From Rhizorhabdus dicambivorans (lineage in GTDB: Bacteria > Pseudomonadota > Alphaproteobacteria > Sphingomonadales > Sphingomonadaceae): a stretch of DNA of 64,000 nt. The stretch covers positions 62,001-126,000 of the forward strand of contig NZ_CP023451.1 of the NCBI RefSeq assembly GCF_002355275.1, written 5' to 3'. Below the pieces are notes generated by a model that searched no databases, was not told the DNA's origin, and saw only the letters and a list, made by a program, of their open reading frames with translations. A program made the position numbers and the translations under genes. Positions 47,606 to 63,326 of the stretch are shown one piece after another. Position 1 is the first letter of the stretch; every line of letters starts with the position of its first letter.

Positions 47606-49126
47606 ATGAAGAGAGTGGAGCTTTATCAGAAGGTCCGCCGCGCCGTGCTGATTGACGGGATGAGCCGTCGCGCTGCCGCCCGGTATTTTGGGATCAATCG
47701 CAAGACCGTCGACAAGATGCTGTGCTTTCCAGAGCCAGCAGCGCACGGCCGGAGCGGGCAAACCTACAGCCGCAAGCTGTCCGGATTTACCGACATCATT
47801 GACCAAATCCTGGTGGATGACCGCAAGGTTCACATCAAACAGCGACACACTGCCGCGCGTATTTTCGAGCGTCTGCGCGATGAACATGGCTTCACCGGCG
47901 GCATCACCATTGTTCGCGACTATGTGGCGGGCGCCAAGTTGCGCAGCCGCGAGGTGTTCATACCATTGAGCCACAAGCCGGGGCATGCGCAGGTGGATTT
48001 TGGTGAGGCGGACGGGATCATCGACGGCAAGTTGGTGCGGTTCCACTATTTCTGCATGGACCTGCCGCACAGCGATGCGCCGTTCGTTAAAGCCTATCCT
48101 GCCGAGGTGGCTGAGGCATTTTGCGAAGGGCACGTGGCGGCCTTTGCCTTCTTCGGCGGCATCCCGCAGTCGATCCTGTATGACAACACCAAGCTGGCAG
48201 TGGCGCAGATCCTGGGCGACGGGAAGCGCGAGCGCAGCCGGATGTTCTCGACCCTCCAGAGCCATTACCTGTTCGAAGACAAATTCGGGCGCCCCGGCAA
48301 GGGTAACGACAAGGGCAAGGTCGAGGGGCTGGTCGGTTATTCCCGGCGCCACTTCATGGTGCCGAGGCCAGAGGCGCCCAGCTTTGATGCGCTGAACGCG
48401 CGCTTTGTCGAACAATGCATGGAGCGACGACAGGCCATCTTGCGCGGGCATGAGCGCAGCATCGGTGACAGGCTGGTGGCTGATCTGGCGGCCTTTATGC
48501 CGCTACCGGCGGTGCCGTTCGATCCCTGCCATATGGTGACGGGGCGGGCCTCGTCGATGTCGCTGGTGCGCTATCGTACCAATGATTATTCGGTGCCGAC
48601 GGCCTATGCCCACCAGGAGGTCGTAATCAAAGGCTATGTCGATCGGGTTGCGATCATCTGTGGCGGGGAGCTGATCGCAGTGCATCCGCGCAGCTATGAG
48701 CGGGAGGACTTCATTGCCAACCCGCTGCACTATCTGGCGCTGTTAGAACAGAAACCCCGCGCGCTTGATCAGGCAGCGCCGCTCGATGGCTGGGTGCTGG
48801 CTGAACCGATGCATCGCATCCGACGACTGATGGAGGCGCGCAGCGGCAAAGAGGGACGGCGCGAGTTCATCCAGGTGCTGCGGCTATGCGAACGCTTCGA
48901 GCAGTCCCTGGTGGAATGGGCAGTGGCCCGCGCGCTGGAGATGGGGGCAATCAGCTTCGATGCGATCAAGATGATCGCGCTGGCCCGCCTCGAACAGCGT
49001 GTGCCGCGCCTCGATCTGCAATTTTACCCGCATTTGCCGCGCGCGAATGTCGGGCGTACCGATCCGCGCACCTACATGGGCCTGCTCTCGCAGGCAGGCA
49101 CTCCAGCGACGGGAGTGGCAGCATGA
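47606..49126 (+). CDS. istA: IS21 transposase IstA
   Basis: A 506-residue protein, strong GGAGGTGGAGG leader. Helix-turn-helix at the N-terminus (RRAVLIDGMSRRAAARYFGI, NRKTVDKML). The DDE core shows HAQVDFGEADGIIDGK, DNTKLAV and the NDKGKVEGLVGY segment with its Glu. The C-terminal half has SLVRYRTNDYSVPTAYAHQE. It cuts and joins element ends; needs IstB for target choice. Coupled to istB by ATGA. Confidence 0.93.
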   Translation: MKRVELYQKVRRAVLIDGMSRRAAARYFGINRKTVDKMLCFPEPAAHGRSGQTYSRKLSGFTDIIDQILVDDRKVHIKQRHTAARIFERLRDEHGFTGGITIVRDYVAGAKLRSREVFIPLSHKPGHAQVDFGEADGIIDGKLVRFHYFCMDLPHSDAPFVKAYPAEVAEAFCEGHVAAFAFFGGIPQSILYDNTKLAVAQILGDGKRERSRMFSTLQSHYLFEDKFGRPGKGNDKGKVEGLVGYSRRHFMVPRPEAPSFDALNARFVEQCMERRQAILRGHERSIGDRLVADLAAFMPLPAVPFDPCHMVTGRASSMSLVRYRTNDYSVPTAYAHQEVVIKGYVDRVAIICGGELIAVHPRSYEREDFIANPLHYLALLEQKPRALDQAAPLDGWVLAEPMHRIRRLMEARSGKEGRREFIQVLRLCERFEQSLVEWAVARALEMGAISFDAIKMIALARLEQRVPRLDLQFYPHLPRANVGRTDPRTYMGLLSQAGTPATGVAA

Positions 49127-49938
49127 GTGATCCCATGATGCCGCTGCCAGCCATCGAGGCCGAACCCACCAGCGTGCCGCCCGCTGTACTACTGGCCAAC
49201 CATCTCAAAGCGCTCAAGCTGCCCACCTTTGTGCGCGAGTATGAGAAGGTCGCCTTCGAGGCCGCGCAGGATCGGGCCGATTACCCCCGCTATCTGCTGC
49301 GCCTGTGCGAACTTGAACGGATTGATCGCGAGCGCCGGATGGTGGAGCGCCGTATCCGCATGGCTCGCTTCCCGCACACCAAGAGCTTTGACACCTTCGA
49401 CTTTGCAGCCCAGCCATCACTGAACAAGGCCTTGGTTCTGGAACTGGCGCGCGGTGAATGGATCGAGCGGCGGCGTAATGTCATTGCGCTGGGCCCCAGC
49501 GGCACCGGTAAGACCCACACCGCCCTCGCGCTAGGACTGGCTGCGTGCCAGAAAGGGCACAGCGTGGCCTTCACAACGGCCGCGGCGTTGGTCCATGACC
49601 TGATGGAGGCTCGCGACGAGCGTCGCTTGCGCAGCCTGCAAAAGCATCTGGCATCTGTAAAGCTGCTGATCCTCGACGAGTTGGGATATGTACCATTCAC
49701 CGCCGTGGGCGGCGAGTTGCTGTTCGAGGTACTCAGCCAGCGCTATGAACGCGGCAGCACGCTGATCACCAGCAATCTGCCCTTCGATGAATGGACATCG
49801 GTGTTCGGCTCCGAACGCCTGACCGGCGCCCTGCTCGACCGGCTGACACACCACGTCCACATTCTCGAGATGAATGGTGACAGCTTCCGTCTCGCCAGCA
49901 GCCGCAAGCGCCAGAAGGACAAGGGGGAGGATAAATGA
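49123..49938 (+). CDS. istB: IS21 helper ATPase IstB
   Basis: A 271-residue AAA+ protein. Walker A GPSGTGKTHTALALG, Walker B VKLLILDELGYVPF, sensor TLITSNLPFDEWTSVFG, arginine-type end RLTGALLDRLTHHVHILE. It delivers target DNA to IstA. It differs clearly from the istB at 30240, so the two IS21 elements are different species. Confidence 0.93.
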   Translation: MSDPMMPLPAIEAEPTSVPPAVLLANHLKALKLPTFVREYEKVAFEAAQDRADYPRYLLRLCELERIDRERRMVERRIRMARFPHTKSFDTFDFAAQPSLNKALVLELARGEWIERRRNVIALGPSGTGKTHTALALGLAACQKGHSVAFTTAAALVHDLMEARDERRLRSLQKHLASVKLLILDELGYVPFTAVGGELLFEVLSQRYERGSTLITSNLPFDEWTSVFGSERLTGALLDRLTHHVHILEMNGDSFRLASSRKRQKDKGEDK

Positions 49939-50101: not shown

Positions 50102-50416
50102 AGTGGTTGAGCGTATCTGGCGGCGGGAGGGTCTTAAAGTGCCGAAGCGGCAACCGAAACGGCGGCGGCTCTGGCTCGGCGACGGATCGTGCATCCGGCT
50201 GCGCCCGGAGCATCGCGGCATGTGTGGTCCTACGACTTCGTCGAGGATCAGACGCACAACGGTCGCAAGTTCCGAATGCTCGACATTATCGACGAGTTCA
50301 GCCGGGAATGCCTGGCGATGGTGCCGCTGCGGCGCTTCCGGTCGAACGACGTGATTGACGTGCTGACCGATCTGTTCATCGAGCATGGGCCGCCCGAGCA
50401 TATCAGATCCGATAAC
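50102..50416 (+). pseudogene. IS3 orfB fragment 2 (middle, frameshifted)
   Basis: Right after the IS21 duplication the frame resumes as VERIWRREGLKVPKRQPKRR and GSCIRLRPEHRG. About 50215 the reading frame shifts by one base and continues HVWSYDFVEDQTHNGRKFRM, LDIIDEFSRECLAM, IEHGPPEHIRSDN, which carries catalytic Asp residues. It is then broken by the IS110 element. Confidence 0.8.
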
Positions 50417-50419
50417 GTC

Positions 50420-50629
50420 CTAGGTTGGGAAGCAGCGGCGGGAAAAGGCCAGCAGGTCTCGTTGCGCCGAGCGTGATCGGCGCTGATGACTTTTTGATCC
50501 AGATGGCTTCCATCGTCAAGGAATGCGCTCTCGGCCATAGCAAACACAGGATCCAGCGACCGCACCGGTCGTGGTCCTCACCGTCCTTAAAATGAGATGC
50601 GGATGCCAGATGGAAGGCCCGAACATTAT
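50420..50629 (-). ncRNA. Candidate bridge RNA region of the IS110 element
   Basis: IS110-family elements encode a structured bridge RNA in a non-coding end; in IS1111-like members it lies downstream of the transposase gene. Here that is the roughly 210-bp segment between the tnp stop (50630) and the element end. Location is inferred from the family rule; fold and loops were not computed. Confidence 0.35.
50447..50460. repeat. 14-bp perfect inverted repeat, IS110 element (partner 51966-51979)
   Basis: GGCCAGCAGGTCTC here and GAGACCTGCTGGCC at 51966-51979, one in each non-coding end of the element. Asymmetric distances from the two tips (about 30 and 97 bp) make it different from a classic terminal repeat. 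Confidence 0.6.
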
Positions 50630-51922
50630 CTACAGGGTCGCGGCTGCGCCCTCACGGCTCCACAGAGAGGGGTCCTTCCATCTGGTGTCCGTCCGTTCGA
50701 CGAACGGACGGTACTCGGTTCCCGTCTTGATGACGGCGTGCGCGACGCGCGCCATCTTGGCGGTGAGTGCGGTCATCGCCTTGCGGCGGCGATCAGGGTC
50801 GTTGCCGTGGCCGGCCACATAGCGACCAAGCTTGTCGCGGAAACTGTTGTCGCGCTGGCGAATGGCGACCTGGGTCGCCATCCAGAAGGTGCGGCGTAGC
50901 CGGGCATTGCCGTACTTCGAGAGCTTGGTTCGGCCTCGGAAGGTGCCTGACTGACAGGTGGCCAGGTCGAGCCCGCAAAACTTCAGGAACTGGCGATGAT
51001 GGTTGAAGCGCCGAAGATCGCCAGCCTCGGCGAGGATCGTCAGCGCGTTGATCGGGCCGATCCCGGGGATCATGCGCAGGAGCTGATAGTCGCGGTTCTC
51101 GCTGAGCATGGCATTGGCGGTCCGCTCGATCTCATCGCGTTGCCGGATCAGGCTGCGGGCTTGTGCGATGACCATGCGGAACATGGCGACCGCGACGGAT
51201 TCCTCGTCGACCGGCAGTGCAACCGAGGCGCAGGCCGTCTCGTAGATATCGTTGATTAAGCGGGCCTTGGAGACCTTGCGGCCGACCAGTGACCAGGCCT
51301 CGCGCGTGAAGGCCTCCTGACCGAGCGTCGTCATGCTGGCCGGTGTCGGAAACCGTTCGAGCAGAGCCAGGAACCAGTCGGACCGGCTGTTGCCCGCAAA
51401 ACGTTCGATCTCGGGAAAATACAAAGGCAGGTAATGGGTCAGGATGCGGTGCCAGGTCTGCGTCTTCGCCTTGGAAATGGCCTCGTGCGTCTTCGACATC
51501 TCCTGCAGGTCGTTGATGCCGGCGGCCAGCGGGTCGACGTAGCGCTGAGTGGCGCCGATCTGGAGCATGTGCAGAATTACCTGGGCGTCTTTGGAATCGT
51601 TCTTGTCCCAGCCATTATGCAACGCCTCACGCGTCCGTGCCAAGGCGACCGACGAAATCAGGCGCAGCTCGAAACCCGCAGCTAGCAGTCGGTGCGCCAG
51701 CGTACGGTGGTAGTTGCCGGTGGCCTCAAAGCCAACGACGATAGGTCTGCCGATGGCTGCCAGATCGTCCGCGAGGCGGTCGTAATCAGCCTTGGTAGCC
51801 ATGACTGTCATGCGGCGACGTCGTCCGCCCTCCGGGCGTTCGATCAGCACTTCCTGGCGGTGCTTGGACATATCGATGGCTACCAGCACGGCATCGGCCG
51901 GAGTAGAACTGCGCTTGGTCAT
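50630..51922 (-). CDS. IS110-family DEDD transposase
   Basis: A 430-residue protein. The N-terminal RuvC-like DEDD domain: DAVLVAIDMSKHRQEVLIER (first Asp), IVVGFEATGNYHRTLAHRL (Glu) and NGWDKNDSKDAQVILHML (Asp pair). The C-terminal Tnp2 domain has MIPGIGPINALTILAEAGDL, FLKFCGLDLATCQSGTFRGR and KLSKYGNARLRRTFWMA with the catalytic-serine region. It inserts without a usual target duplication, guided by a bridge RNA. Confidence 0.93.
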   Translation of the reverse strand: MTKRSSTPADAVLVAIDMSKHRQEVLIERPEGGRRRRMTVMATKADYDRLADDLAAIGRPIVVGFEATGNYHRTLAHRLLAAGFELRLISSVALARTREALHNGWDKNDSKDAQVILHMLQIGATQRYVDPLAAGINDLQEMSKTHEAISKAKTQTWHRILTHYLPLYFPEIERFAGNSRSDWFLALLERFPTPASMTTLGQEAFTREAWSLVGRKVSKARLINDIYETACASVALPVDEESVAVAMFRMVIAQARSLIRQRDEIERTANAMLSENRDYQLLRMIPGIGPINALTILAEAGDLRRFNHHRQFLKFCGLDLATCQSGTFRGRTKLSKYGNARLRRTFWMATQVAIRQRDNSFRDKLGRYVAGHGNDPDRRRKAMTALTAKMARVAHAVIKTGTEYRPFVERTDTRWKDPSLWSREGAAATL

Positions 51923-52075
51923 GGTCGGTCAGTCTCCAAAGTGTTGAGTCGACAACTTCACTTTAGAGACCTGCTGGCCGGTCATGGCCGCCTTGATGAA
52001 GCCGTCGGGCGCTACGCGCCCTTGTCTCCATCAAGGCGAATGCTGCCTTCGAGGGGCAGCTTCCCAATGTGCTAC

Positions 52076-52414
52076 GGCCCCGAGTTCGTCGCTAATGCGG
52101 TGCGCGAGTGACTCGGCAGGCTTGGCGTCATTACCCTCTATATCGAGCCCGGCAGCCCATGGGAGAACGGCTATATCGAAAGCTTCAATGCCCGTCTGCG
52201 AGATGAACTGCTCAACGGCGAAATCTTCTACAGCCTTGAGGAGGTGCGGATCGTCACCGGCTGGTGGCGCGATCATTACAACCGAGCACGGCCCCACAGC
52301 AGTCTCGGATATCGACCACCGGCCCCGGAGACGATCAAGATGCCAGCCTGGCCGCTCGGCTCCGCTACGCTCCGCCTCCCGCCCAGGCTGGTATCAGAGG
52401 CGCAGATCAACTAA
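52076..52414 (+). pseudogene. IS3 orfB fragment 3 (C-terminal, with stop)
   Basis: GPEFVANAVRE, a TGA at 52109-52111 where Trp is expected, then LGRLGVITLYIEPGSPWENG and YIESFNARLRDELLNGEIFY with the catalytic Glu, ending VSEAQIN. The stop and two insertions leave the IS3 element inactive. Confidence 0.82.
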
Positions 52415-52448: not shown

Positions 52449-52729
52449 TGTCCTGAGCTCGGCCCATCGCGATGTTGCGACATGGCTCTGCCGTTGCCTG
52501 GCGCCGAGGGAAAGCGCCCTCCGCCTGACTGATCCCCTAAGCCCGGACGGTTGCCGTGGGGCAACCCCCGCGGTGCCGGACCGGGTTGTCGCTCGCGCGC
52601 CTGCCCGCACCACTCCGGCCCTTGTGGGTCGGGTCGCCGCTTGCGCGTCGATGCCCTCGTCTCCCGCCGGTCTTGGCCGGGTCTCGTCGGAGGGACGGTC
52701 CCTCGGACGGAAGCAACGGAGATTTGATC
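52449..52729. other. GC-rich leader region of ssb
   Basis: No gene recognised. Several short GC-rich inverted repeats (for example GTTGCCGTGGGGCAAC near 52550 and GGGACGGTCCC near 52692) suggest structured RNA or regulatory DNA before ssb. Confidence 0.35.
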
Positions 52730-53137
52730 ATGCAGAACATCGTCATTCTTGCCGGCAATATCGGCATGGATCCGGAGAGCCGCACCACCCAGGGCGGGAC
52801 CCGCATCACCCACTTCACCCTGGCGACCTCGCGTCCCCGCTATTCGGAAGGCAAGGTCGTTCGCGATGAGAAAGGCTACCGCGTCCAGGACACCGAATGG
52901 CATCGGATCACCGCGTTCAATGGCCTCGGCAAGACCGTGCAGGAGCATTGCACCAAGGGCATGAAGCTGCTGGTGCGCGGCCGCATCCATTACAGCGAAT
53001 GGACCGATGGCGACGGCGTCGAGCGCTACGGCACCGAGATCATCGCCGAGACGATCGACTTCCTCAGCCGGGCGAAATCGAAGTCCGACGAGGCCGGCGA
53101 CCCTGATCCTGAGCTCGACGACGACGTGCCCTTCTGA
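52730..53137 (+). CDS. ssb: Single-stranded DNA-binding protein
   Basis: A 135-residue protein; CGGAGA precedes the ATG at 52730. OB-fold: MQNIVILAGNIGMDPESRTT, THFTLATSRPRYSEGK, TEWHRITAFNGLGKTVQEHC, KGMKLLVRGRIHYSEWTDGD. The short acidic tail ends DPELDDDVPF, the conserved protein-docking tip. The length and lack of a long linker resemble plasmid or phage SSBs more than chromosomal ones. Confidence 0.92.
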   Translation: MQNIVILAGNIGMDPESRTTQGGTRITHFTLATSRPRYSEGKVVRDEKGYRVQDTEWHRITAFNGLGKTVQEHCTKGMKLLVRGRIHYSEWTDGDGVERYGTEIIAETIDFLSRAKSKSDEAGDPDPELDDDVPF

Positions 53138-61401: not shown

Positions 61402-63326
61402 TGCGCGTCTCCCTTCGGACGGACGCTCACGACCCGCATCATCCCTGCATGCATGTGGTAGAGGAGATGACAGTGGAAGGCCCAGTCGCCGACCGCGTCG
61501 GCGGTGAAGTCCCAGGTCACCTTGCCGCCGGGCTGGACGATCACCGTATGCTTGCGCGGCGCATGATCGCCATGCCCCGTCACCAGCTCGAAGAAATGCC
61601 CGTGAATATGGATCGGATGCCCCATCATCGTGTCGTTGATGAGATTGACGCGCACCCGCTCGCCTTCGATGAAGGGGATCGGCTCGTGATGGTCCGACAT
61701 TTTTTCGCCGTCGAACGACCACATGAACCGCTCCATGTTGCCGGTGAGGTGAATGTCGATGCTGCGGCTCGGCGCGCGCACGTCCGGATTGCGATCGAGC
61801 GCCATCAGGTCCCTGTAGACAAGCACCTTGTGGCCGACGTCGGCGAGGCCCTGGCCGGGCTCGCCGGTGCGGTCTACGGGCATCGGCGAGATGGTCTGGA
61901 CGCTCGGGTCGCGCTTCACCTGCGGCGCGTTCGAGAAGTCGCGCATCTTCATCGAGCCCATCGCGTGCCCGCCATGATCCATGCCCGCCATCTGGCCATC
62001 GGCGCCCATCGCGCCGTGGTCCATGCCGGCCATCGATCCATGATCCATCCCCGAATGATCCATGCCTGCCATGGCGCTATTGTCCATGGTCGCCATCGCT
62101 GCCGCCGCGCCGGTCGCGAGGCGCGCGGACGCGTTCTTCTCGGCCGTCGGATCGACGCCCCGCATAGCGCCGCCCGACATGTCCATGCCTTCCATGCCCG
62201 GCATCGAGGACATGTCCATGCCCATGTCCTTCATGTCGGCGAGCGGCCGTTTGCGTAAGGGGGGAACCTCGCCGGCCATGCCGGCCCTCGGCGCGAGCGT
62301 GGCACGCGCCATGCCCGAGCGGTCGATCGCCTCGCCGACAAGGGTGTAGGCCTTGTCATCGCCTGGGCTGACAACGACGTCGTAGGTCTCGGCAACACCA
62401 ATCTGGAACTCGTCGACGGTGACCGGCACCACATTCTGCCCGTCGGCCTGGACGATGGTCAGCGGCAGGCCGGGGATGCGGACGTTGAAGGTGGTCATCG
62501 CCGACGCATTGATGACCCGCAGCCGCACCCGTTCGCCCGGGGTGAAGAGCGCGGTCCAGTTGTCCATCGGACCATGGCCATTGACGAGATAGGTGTAGGT
62601 GGATCCGGTCACATCGGAGATGTCGGCCGGGTCCATCCGCATCTGGCCCCAGTCGAGCCGGTCTTTGAGCGGCTGATCCTTGCCCGACAGGAGCCCGGCC
62701 AGGGTCTGGCGCTGGAAATTGAAATGGCCGGGGTTGGCCTTGAGGCGCCGGAAGATCGCCTGCGGCGAGAGCGCGCTGTGATCGGCGAGCACGATGACAT
62801 GCTCGCGGTCATAGGCGACCGGATCGGCACCGGCGGGATCGATGATGATCGGGCCGTAATGGCCTTCCTGTTCCTGCAGGCCTGAATGGCTGTGGTACCA
62901 GTAGGTGCCGCTTTGCACGACGGAGAACTGGTAGAGGTAGTTCGAGCCCGGCTTGATGCCCGGAAAAGACACGCCCGGCACACCGTCCATATTGGCCGGC
63001 AGGATCAGCCCGTGCCAGTGGATCGAGCTGTCCTCCTCCAGCTGATTGATGACGTTGAGCCGCACGCGCTGGCCCTCGCGCAGCCGGATCAGCGGGGCGG
63101 GGACCGTGCCGTTGAGGCCGATTGCCCGGAACTTGCGCCCGTCGATGGTCATCGACTGCCGGGCGATGGTGAGCGTGATGTCTTCGCCCGACACGGTCGG
63201 CAGCGTCGGTCGCATCCCCGGCGAGATCGTCTGCGCCCAGGCCGGCAGCCAGGCTGACAAGGCGGCGCCGCCGCCGGCGAGGGCCGCGCCGCGGAGGAAC
63301 TGGCGGCGGTCGAGAGCAGAAATCAT
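61398..63326 (-). CDS. copA: Copper resistance multicopper oxidase CopA (copy 2)
   Basis: A 642-residue protein. Tat signal DRRQFLRGAALAGGGAA. Copper ligands: SSIHWHGL (about 101-107), WYHSHSG, GHPIHIHGHFF and FHCHLLYHMHAGMM. A long Met/His repeat (MDHSGMDHGSMAGMDHGAMG and neighbours) sits before the last cupredoxin domain and should bind several copper ions. Periplasmic cuprous oxidase; coupled to copB. Confidence 0.94.
   Translation of the reverse strand: MISALDRRQFLRGAALAGGGAALSAWLPAWAQTISPGMRPTLPTVSGEDITLTIARQSMTIDGRKFRAIGLNGTVPAPLIRLREGQRVRLNVINQLEEDSSIHWHGLILPANMDGVPGVSFPGIKPGSNYLYQFSVVQSGTYWYHSHSGLQEQEGHYGPIIIDPAGADPVAYDREHVIVLADHSALSPQAIFRRLKANPGHFNFQRQTLAGLLSGKDQPLKDRLDWGQMRMDPADISDVTGSTYTYLVNGHGPMDNWTALFTPGERVRLRVINASAMTTFNVRIPGLPLTIVQADGQNVVPVTVDEFQIGVAETYDVVVSPGDDKAYTLVGEAIDRSGMARATLAPRAGMAGEVPPLRKRPLADMKDMGMDMSSMPGMEGMDMSGGAMRGVDPTAEKNASARLATGAAAAMATMDNSAMAGMDHSGMDHGSMAGMDHGAMGADGQMAGMDHGGHAMGSMKMRDFSNAPQVKRDPSVQTISPMPVDRTGEPGQGLADVGHKVLVYRDLMALDRNPDVRAPSRSIDIHLTGNMERFMWSFDGEKMSDHHEPIPFIEGERVRVNLINDTMMGHPIHIHGHFFELVTGHGDHAPRKHTVIVQPGGKVTWDFTADAVGDWAFHCHLLYHMHAGMMRVVSVRPKGDAQ

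Follow-up and report, generated by a model that had tools for sequence, protein, structure and literature searches.

An IS110-family element of Rhizorhabdus dicambivorans with a candidate bridge RNA that overlaps its recombinase gene and matches catalytic codons of DDE transposases

Within the window, the whole stretch of 64,000 nucleotides of Rhizorhabdus dicambivorans that was analysed (positions 62,001 to 126,000 of NZ_CP023451.1, a 256-kb contig in an assembly of 5.54 Mb and 5 contigs), lies an intact IS110-family element that interrupts an IS3-type transposase gene (Table 1). Its sequences are quoted in recombinase orientation, i.e. as the reverse complement of the window. The recombinase carries both domains that define the family, DEDD_Tnp_IS110 (PF01548, 71.1 bits) and Transposase_20 (PF02371, 91.1 bits), and scored 216.8 bits against the NCBIfam model NF033542 (cut-off 140). 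Its solved relatives by sequence are the IS621 and ISCro4 transposases, which match over residues 279-404. A match to the TIGR-Tas endonuclease model over residues 253-364 stayed below the cut-off (34.8 bits; cut-off 100).

A preliminary description, made from the sequence alone, had noted sub-terminal inverted repeats, and these were found in place, 12 nt long and 92% complementary (11/12). It had also held that the insertion junction was known to within a base, and the boundary indeed proved exact: in plasmids of Novosphingobium sp. EMRT-2 and Sphingobium herbicidovorans the same gene stands without the element, reading GGGGCC-GT-TATCGG with the flanks joined. Three empty plasmid copies matched the 120-nt flanks on either side at 99.2%, which, with the core given as NN, amounts to identity everywhere else. 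As judged from the empty sites, the insertion caused no target duplication beyond the core, as is characteristic of the IS110 family. The C-side frame of the interrupted gene stops after 11 codons, and because the three empty copies match the flanks outside the core, this stop predates the insertion.

A second copy elsewhere in the same genome is 100% identical over 1,659 bp, identical copies lie on two plasmids of Sphingobium yanoikuyae and one of S. amiense, and a copy in S. xenophagum differs by the first LE base; the element has probably been active recently. Similar DNA was present in 119 records of a plasmid collection and in 48 of 397 genomes of the family, many of these matches being short, and in a collection of single genomes 161 stretches encoded a relative, and the best 80 of these were retained. 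As to the neighbourhood, an IS21-type istA/istB pair (47606-49938; NCBIfam IS21 and IstB models) lies directly left of the interrupted gene, and an ORF at 52556-53137 resembles, by eye, a single-stranded DNA-binding protein. One empty-site plasmid (L153) carries an annotated SSB on the corresponding side, and the neighbourhood may be shared.

Table 1. Features of the element and its insertion site (window coordinates)
Feature	Positions	Strand	Basis or remark
N-side part of interrupted IS3-type transposase, ends ...RSDN	50138-50416	+	93 open codons; rve and IS3 models
IS110-family element, 1,659 bp	50417-52075	-	LE at 52075, RE at 50417; second identical copy and empty sites
Sub-terminal inverted repeat, right	50425-50436	-	repeat comparison
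RE arm of 14-bp repeat, GAGACCTGCTGGCC	50447-50460	-	repeat comparison, covariation
TTGACG, possible -35 of a promoter reading outwards across RE	50514-50519	-	TTGAC in 23/27 representatives
Putative donor-binding loop, apical hairpin 50549-50577	50527-50598	-	alignment, RNAalifold
Putative right donor guide UGUGUUUGCUAU; paired UGU (50544-50546) and GCUAU (50537-50541)	50537-50548	-	covariation with right donor: L117, L122/L126, L113/L124
Putative left donor guide AGGAC-G-GU	50580-50587	-	covaries with left donor in L117, L121
Putative target-binding loop; outer stem 50670-50685 + 50606-50620, inner hairpin 50635-50651	50606-50685	-	alignment
Putative right target guide GAUAAUG, from last base of UAG stop	50624-50630	-	pairing table
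Recombinase (transposase) ORF, 430 aa	50630-51922	-	ORF list and domain models
Putative left target guide GCCGU, in recombinase codons	50654-50658	-	conserved 54/54 except one base of L125
Putative bridge RNA 5' stem-loop, within ORF	50689-50711	-	96.7% of cells paired; 5/10 pairs changed on both sides
Hairpin before start codon, including Shine-Dalgarno GGAG (~51934-51937); edges approximate	51929-51972	-	folding
LE arm of 14-bp repeat, GGCCAGCAGGTCTC	51966-51979	-	repeat comparison, covariation
Strong LE stem-loop upstream of LE arm	51989-52038	-	folding
Sub-terminal inverted repeat, left	52056-52067	-	repeat comparison
C-side continuation GPEFVANAVRE and stop	52076-52111	+	translation

Where the ends of copies could be set by blast alignment, left flanks ended in CC in 51/51 cases and right flanks began with GTTRTC in 55/55, with both present at 37 distinct sites; these counts are free of boundary-pattern bias, though some loci are redundant. 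For the flank translations, the domain matches, the left-guide extension test and the targets of relatives of 47-67% identity, boundaries were placed by a pattern that requires GTTRTC on the right and prefers CC on the left, so that these flanks lean towards the motif. At the 37 distinct sites the core at RE was always GT, while at LE it was GT in 21 and AT in 16. At empty counterparts the sequence is CC-AT-TGTC for one AT site (L003) and CC-GT-TATC for the GT site in the window; on this single AT example, LE keeps the core of the target and RE carries that of the donor.

On the other strand the target reads GAY-AAY-GGN, i.e. the codons D-N|G, and translated flanks gave ...SDN|GTEF, RVDN|GSEF, LTDN|GIQF, MTDN|GSCY and similar junctions. 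The integrase core rve was detected in 67/75 N-side flanks and rve_3 in 68/77 C-side flanks (E up to 0.01), the models matched being those of IS3, IS481, ISNCY, IS630, IS21 and IS6, which overlap one another. Judged by these flanks, CCRTTRTC is the antisense of the D-N-G codons that include the second catalytic Asp of DDE transposases, and most copies sit in genes of this kind. The second copy of the same genome lies inside a Mu-type transposase, and both copies cut the rve domain at profile position 74. Among the exceptions, one N-side flank matched a glyoxalase and some flanks matched nothing. At L078:571-1350 the left flank matches the C-terminal domain of MutL (DNA mismatch repair) with D-N-G and the right flank a transposase, reflecting either an off-target insertion plus rearrangement or a chimeric contig. 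At L062 the right end adjoins, head to tail, the left end of a further IS110 element (CATAGGAC|GTAGCACC), an arrangement that is not a circle.

Relatives of 47-67% identity shared this target wherever both ends were readable, including L121 from the Acidobacteriota and L117 (47%) from another class of the phylum; in L120 (Betaproteobacteria) only the left flank was readable, as it was, by eye, in L119 (Gammaproteobacteria, 44%). The lineage thus spans Alphaproteobacteria and Acidobacteriota, with Beta- and Gammaproteobacteria represented by copies with one or both ends unread. Class- and phylum-wide searches, which gave matches in 3/385 and 4/398 genomes (own genome included), were also examined for natural retargeting within the lineage, and all relatives with readable ends had the same target. 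By these flanks, the target appears unchanged down to 47% protein identity.

The preliminary description had placed a likely bridge RNA in the non-coding ends. Searching Rfam covariance models at a permissive threshold returned two hits only, both far below gathering scores. An alignment of relatives was also made. Of 102 sequences, 55 were less than 97% identical to one another and 54 of these were aligned. The anchor TAGAYAATG was required, which set aside nine loci with a recombinase match (seven of them fragments or contig ends; L120 is truncated), three loci were too short, and L066, whose right end diverges, was left out beforehand. In a structure drawn from the first sequence, a choice that favours its share of paired cells, 91.4% of cells were paired across the 54 sequences and 31/51 pairs had changed on both sides. 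Cells changed on both sides numbered 191, compared to 62.3 in shuffles (0/500 as high), and sliding the partners by one to three columns left only 29.5-46.9% paired. RNAalifold, unaided, recovered the 5' stem-loop, the target loop and some of the donor loop; both sides had changed in 29/46 of its pairs. The outer stem of the target loop can, by eye, be drawn with wholly different letters in L117 (GGTCACGGG/CCCGTGACC), and the minimum-energy fold of that sequence differs from the drawn stem. A covariance model of the target loop built from the relatives, with the window copy and other relatives in its training set, found 13 places in 6/99 family genomes, two of them the element's own copies.

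These patterns strongly support a bridge RNA at the 3' end of the ORF and in the right end. The earlier placement therefore held on the right-end side, and the sub-terminal repeats do lie in the non-coding ends; the non-coding ends are, however, an incomplete location for the RNA, part of which falls inside the recombinase ORF, and its guides follow the IS110 and not the IS1111 order.

The loops were compared with the GATAAC/GGCCCC flanks, as the preliminary description had proposed, and they fit. GCCGU has the letters of the top strand of GCC-GT and is therefore predicted to pair with the bottom one, and GAUAAUG complements the top strand of C-RT-TRTC. Target and target guides hardly vary, so covariation is no test of this pairing, and the invariance of GAUAAUG is partly imposed by its use as the alignment anchor. 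In three aligned relatives (L069, L078, L080) the guide reads GACAAUG instead and the target base facing the change is G, which fits, though the cases are few. The two variable target bases are third codon positions; by G.U pairing, the U of the right guide and the core G of the left one can accept either letter. Extending the left guide beyond GCC gave no excess of matches except at position -4 (35/74 vs 27.2 shuffled).

Donors do vary, and the donor guides follow their changes in L117, L121, L122/L126 and L113/L124. The left donors AGGAC, AGTCC (L117) and AGTAC (L121) stand opposite AGGAC, AGUCC and AGUAC, after each of which come one additional base and GU; the right donors RTAGC, RTAGT (L117) and RTAAC (L122, L126) stand opposite GCUAU, ACUAU and GUUAU; and the outer right-donor triplet, ACA or, in L113 and L124, ATG, faces UGU or UAU, with two unpaired bases between. 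Misfits occur in L119 at the right donor, in L061 and L068 with one mismatch each at the left donor, and in L007, L080, L121, L122 and L126 at the outer right-donor triplet. Loops complementary to target and donor, the mark of a guide RNA, were thus found by sequence and covariation, and the anatomy, the target and the conserved pairing can be taken as established at that level.

The copies lie mostly in DDE transposase genes because, on this reading, the guides match the D-N-G codons. The own genome contains 560 CCRTTRTC sites vs 20 rve matches (17 over the cut-off, two being the cut ones), and therefore the location of 2/2 own copies in rve genes is unlike random use of sites. We give an even chance to the alternative that this bias is one of survival only, the guide reading just eight bases and copies in other genes having been lost. 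The abundance of sites relative to rve matches speaks for it, as do the L078 flank in the MutL family, another D-N-G protein, and the search for extended left-guide pairing, which found none; against it, DDE transposases make up about nine in ten flanks, although many of the 560 sites should fall in DNA that can be dispensed with. If survival were the cause, the guide mechanism would be unchanged and only the reason for the clean pattern would differ.

By the alignment, the 5' stem-loop and the left target guide lie in the last ~27 recombinase codons, which would thus also serve as RNA. Across 34 ORFs of close relatives, the difference at four-fold sites is 0.439 over the ORF and 0.15 in codons 401-420, with none in codons 413-424, and it rises again to 0.334 in codons 425-428; among 395 earlier 28-codon windows, some of which overlap the region, two had values no higher than codons 402-429. 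Codons 381-400 (0.248) and codons 1-20 (0.229; 51863-51922) show little synonymous change too, in the latter case perhaps from pairing with the 5' end. In L033, L048 and L051 the ORF ends at 423 aa with its stop inside the loop, and the RNA letters are kept. In the parts of PMC11187229, PMC11208160 and PMC8450116 that were covered, we found no mention of a guide RNA that extends into the recombinase ORF.

The 14-bp inverted repeat of the preliminary description was likewise present as described and is perfect (100% complementary); by arithmetic, chance would produce such a 14-mer ~1e-4 times for ends of 213 and 153 nt. It lies outside the guide loops and forms a separate LE-RE helix with compensatory changes. 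Across 62 loci (at least 66% identity), 94.6% of its cells pair vs 90.1% with shuffled partners and compensatory cells number 32 vs 8.0, the corresponding values in 18 representatives being 92.0% vs 84.8% and 19 vs 4.9; 0/1000 shuffles reached these values in either set. L061 has a perfect 14-mer with two exchanged pairs. Duplex energies were -30.4 kcal/mol for own and -26.5 kcal/mol for cross partners (27 representatives; 0/20000 permutations, in a kind of test that relatedness inflates), and in 10/27 representatives, for the most part those that have diverged furthest, pairing of the arms does not exceed that of shuffled ones (within 1 s.d.). Taken together, the repeat is probably a conserved LE-RE helix formed as RNA.

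The LE arm overlaps the 5' side of the hairpin that buries the Shine-Dalgarno sequence. We folded 26 representatives (one of the 27 lacks the motif) with the last 62 nt of RE added upstream, whereupon the Shine-Dalgarno sequence opened by >0.1 in 14/26 and closed in 0/26. In the window copy it was the AUG that opened (0.36 to 0.98), the Shine-Dalgarno sequence staying paired (0.00 to 0.02), so that folding of this copy supports in part a sensing of the circle. TTGAC lies upstream of the RE arm or close by in most representatives (Table 1), in 19 at the same offset (2.3 expected from base shuffles; the sequences are related). Its -10 partners are poor, and a generic promoter scan gave one promoter-like site, inside the ORF, none at TTGACG and no clear promoter. 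It is plausible that the LE-RE helix would detect the circular form and regulate translation of the recombinase, and we put forward this circle-sensing switch as a reasoned hypothesis with ISPpu9 as its nearest precedent.

Alternatively, the RE arm may act in trans, the bridge RNA or a longer RE transcript pairing with the 5' UTR of the recombinase mRNA in the manner of ISPpu9, whose 5' UTR, according to the part of PMC8450116 covered, hides the ribosome site and is acted on by two small RNAs. We regard this as doubtful: in the same source the activator is an antisense RNA that a downstream sense RNA opposes, and in our element the RE arm is located further downstream than the guide loops and may lie outside their RNA. 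It is improbable, too, that the repeat is a site in the DNA of the two ends, serving the recombinase or a regulator. Most relatives keep CAGGTC/GACCTG as sequence and the arms are symmetric about the junction of a circle, as such a site would have it, but the arms change together (L061, L077, L125), and one-sided departures, counted from the table of the 62 loci, comprise 76 G.T-type vs 16 A.C-type cells, as expected for RNA with G.U pairs, so that RNA is favoured.

Our first reading of the right end took AUGGC/UUGACG as target guides in IS1111 order, and was dropped since distant relatives keep the target and not UUGACG. The helices at this 3' end, AUGGC/GCCAU and UUCC/GGAA, are weak (82.6% and 61.7% paired as drawn). 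That the bridge RNA lies in the right end only, its AUGGC....UUGACG segment holding the target guides without ORF overlap, is very improbable: AUGGC is complementary to GCC-RT, UUGACG resembles the right target and the sub-terminal repeats and downstream position recall IS1111, but same-target relatives (L069, L075, L078, L081, L082) lack UUGACG, the letter after AUGG changes, the helices of the segment covary poorly, and its letters are accounted for by the right donor guide and the covariation of this guide with the donor.

Overall, we consider it quite probable that the best explanation is a self-contained system of IS110-family recombinase and bridge RNA, with guides on D-N-G codons and an LE-RE helix. 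We infer from the sequence patterns the production of the RNA, its pairing with DNA, the circle and the effect on translation. The bridge RNA, spanning the recombinase gene's 3' end as well as the right end, would run from the 5' stem-loop through the target-binding loop to the donor-binding loop. With the recombinase, the target guides would pair with CC-RT-TRTC, GCCGU on its bottom and GAUAAUG on its top strand, the donor guides would pair with the circle junction TAGGAC-GT-AGCACA, and strand exchange at the RT dinucleotide would leave the target's core at LE and the donor's GT at RE. Variation at third codon positions would be accepted as G.U wobbles, letting one short guide fit many transposase families. 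The most likely reading of the 14-bp helix is that, in a transcript across the circle junction, it would free the LE arm from the hairpin concealing the start region of the recombinase and so favour translation from the circle.

A further reading, which we hold to be rather less likely than not, would make this deep IS110 lineage a dedicated RNA-guided parasite of transposases with a circle sensor: a guide fixed on D-N-G codons with wobble letters, a guide RNA within its own ORF, and a circle-junction helix that would switch translation on. In this element the guides of the bridge RNA, the donor and the target are all legible in the sequence. A bridge RNA that can extend into coding sequence also means that searches limited to non-coding ends would miss part of it. 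The findings further suggest that the catalytic codons of other transposases, which are widespread and almost harmless to occupy, are a target on which IS110 elements of very distant kinship settle. They also suggest that a short guide can serve many gene families if it tolerates wobble pairs at synonymous positions; the LE-RE helix would give the element a testable means of telling its circle from its integrated form.

The comparison with known systems draws on the parts of the cited publications that were covered. With IS621 (PMC11208160) the element shares the order of 5' stem-loop, target loop and donor loop, a left guide that pairs with the bottom strand and a right guide that pairs with the top strand, and a core dinucleotide inside the pairings. 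In IS621 nine RNA bases of the right donor guide are reported to pair discontiguously with seven donor bases, and the same discontiguous pairing with a 2-nt excess is predicted here. The two differ in that the RNA lies in the left end of IS621 and at the 3' end with ORF overlap in our element, and the 430-aa recombinase matches that of IS621 only over residues 279-404 (phmmer).

There is a published precedent for the target: ISEc21, only very distantly related within the IS110 family, inserts at the second Asp codon of the DDE triad in IS3-family transposases (PMC11187229), and like our element it has a catalytic Asp codon as target and a bottom-strand match before the top-strand match. In ISEc21, however, the NCR with the guide RNA lies upstream of tnp, the transposase is alignable with the recombinase of the window only at 26.8% over 56 aa (E 0.034), and insertion is sense at SD|QG, whereas our element is antisense at DN|G. 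ISEc21 was the only stated case of this target found in the literature covered.

With the IS1111 group (ISEc11, ISKpn4, ISPa11, ISPst6; PMC11187229) the element shares sub-terminal repeats of 11-13 bp, which hold for the window copy and are by eye shorter in L051 and L121, and a guide RNA downstream of tnp, which here also overlaps the ORF end. It departs from the group in its 430-aa transposase (330-350 aa there), in its terminal extensions of 8/8 bp with the boundary used (7/3 bp there) and in placing the bottom-strand complement GCCGU first (the top-strand complement there). This order, together with the IS621-like loop order and a length within the 395-455 aa of the IS110 subgroup (PMC11187229), agrees with the narrow IS110 group, from whose upstream guide RNA and lack of sub-terminal repeats it differs by its RNA at the 3' end and its repeats; some IS110 members do have a downstream NCR (PMC11187229). 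ISPpu9 (PMC8450116) resembles the element in a 5' UTR structure that hides the ribosome site of the transposase and in the involvement of RNA from the other end in control. It differs in relying on an antisense RNA and a sense decoy, an LE-RE helix not being found described in the part of that source covered. Guides in IS110-type order at the place typical of IS1111, a guide RNA with letters in common with the recombinase gene, a D-N-G target kept over deep divergence and an end-to-end helix would, as read from the sequences, make up a new combination.
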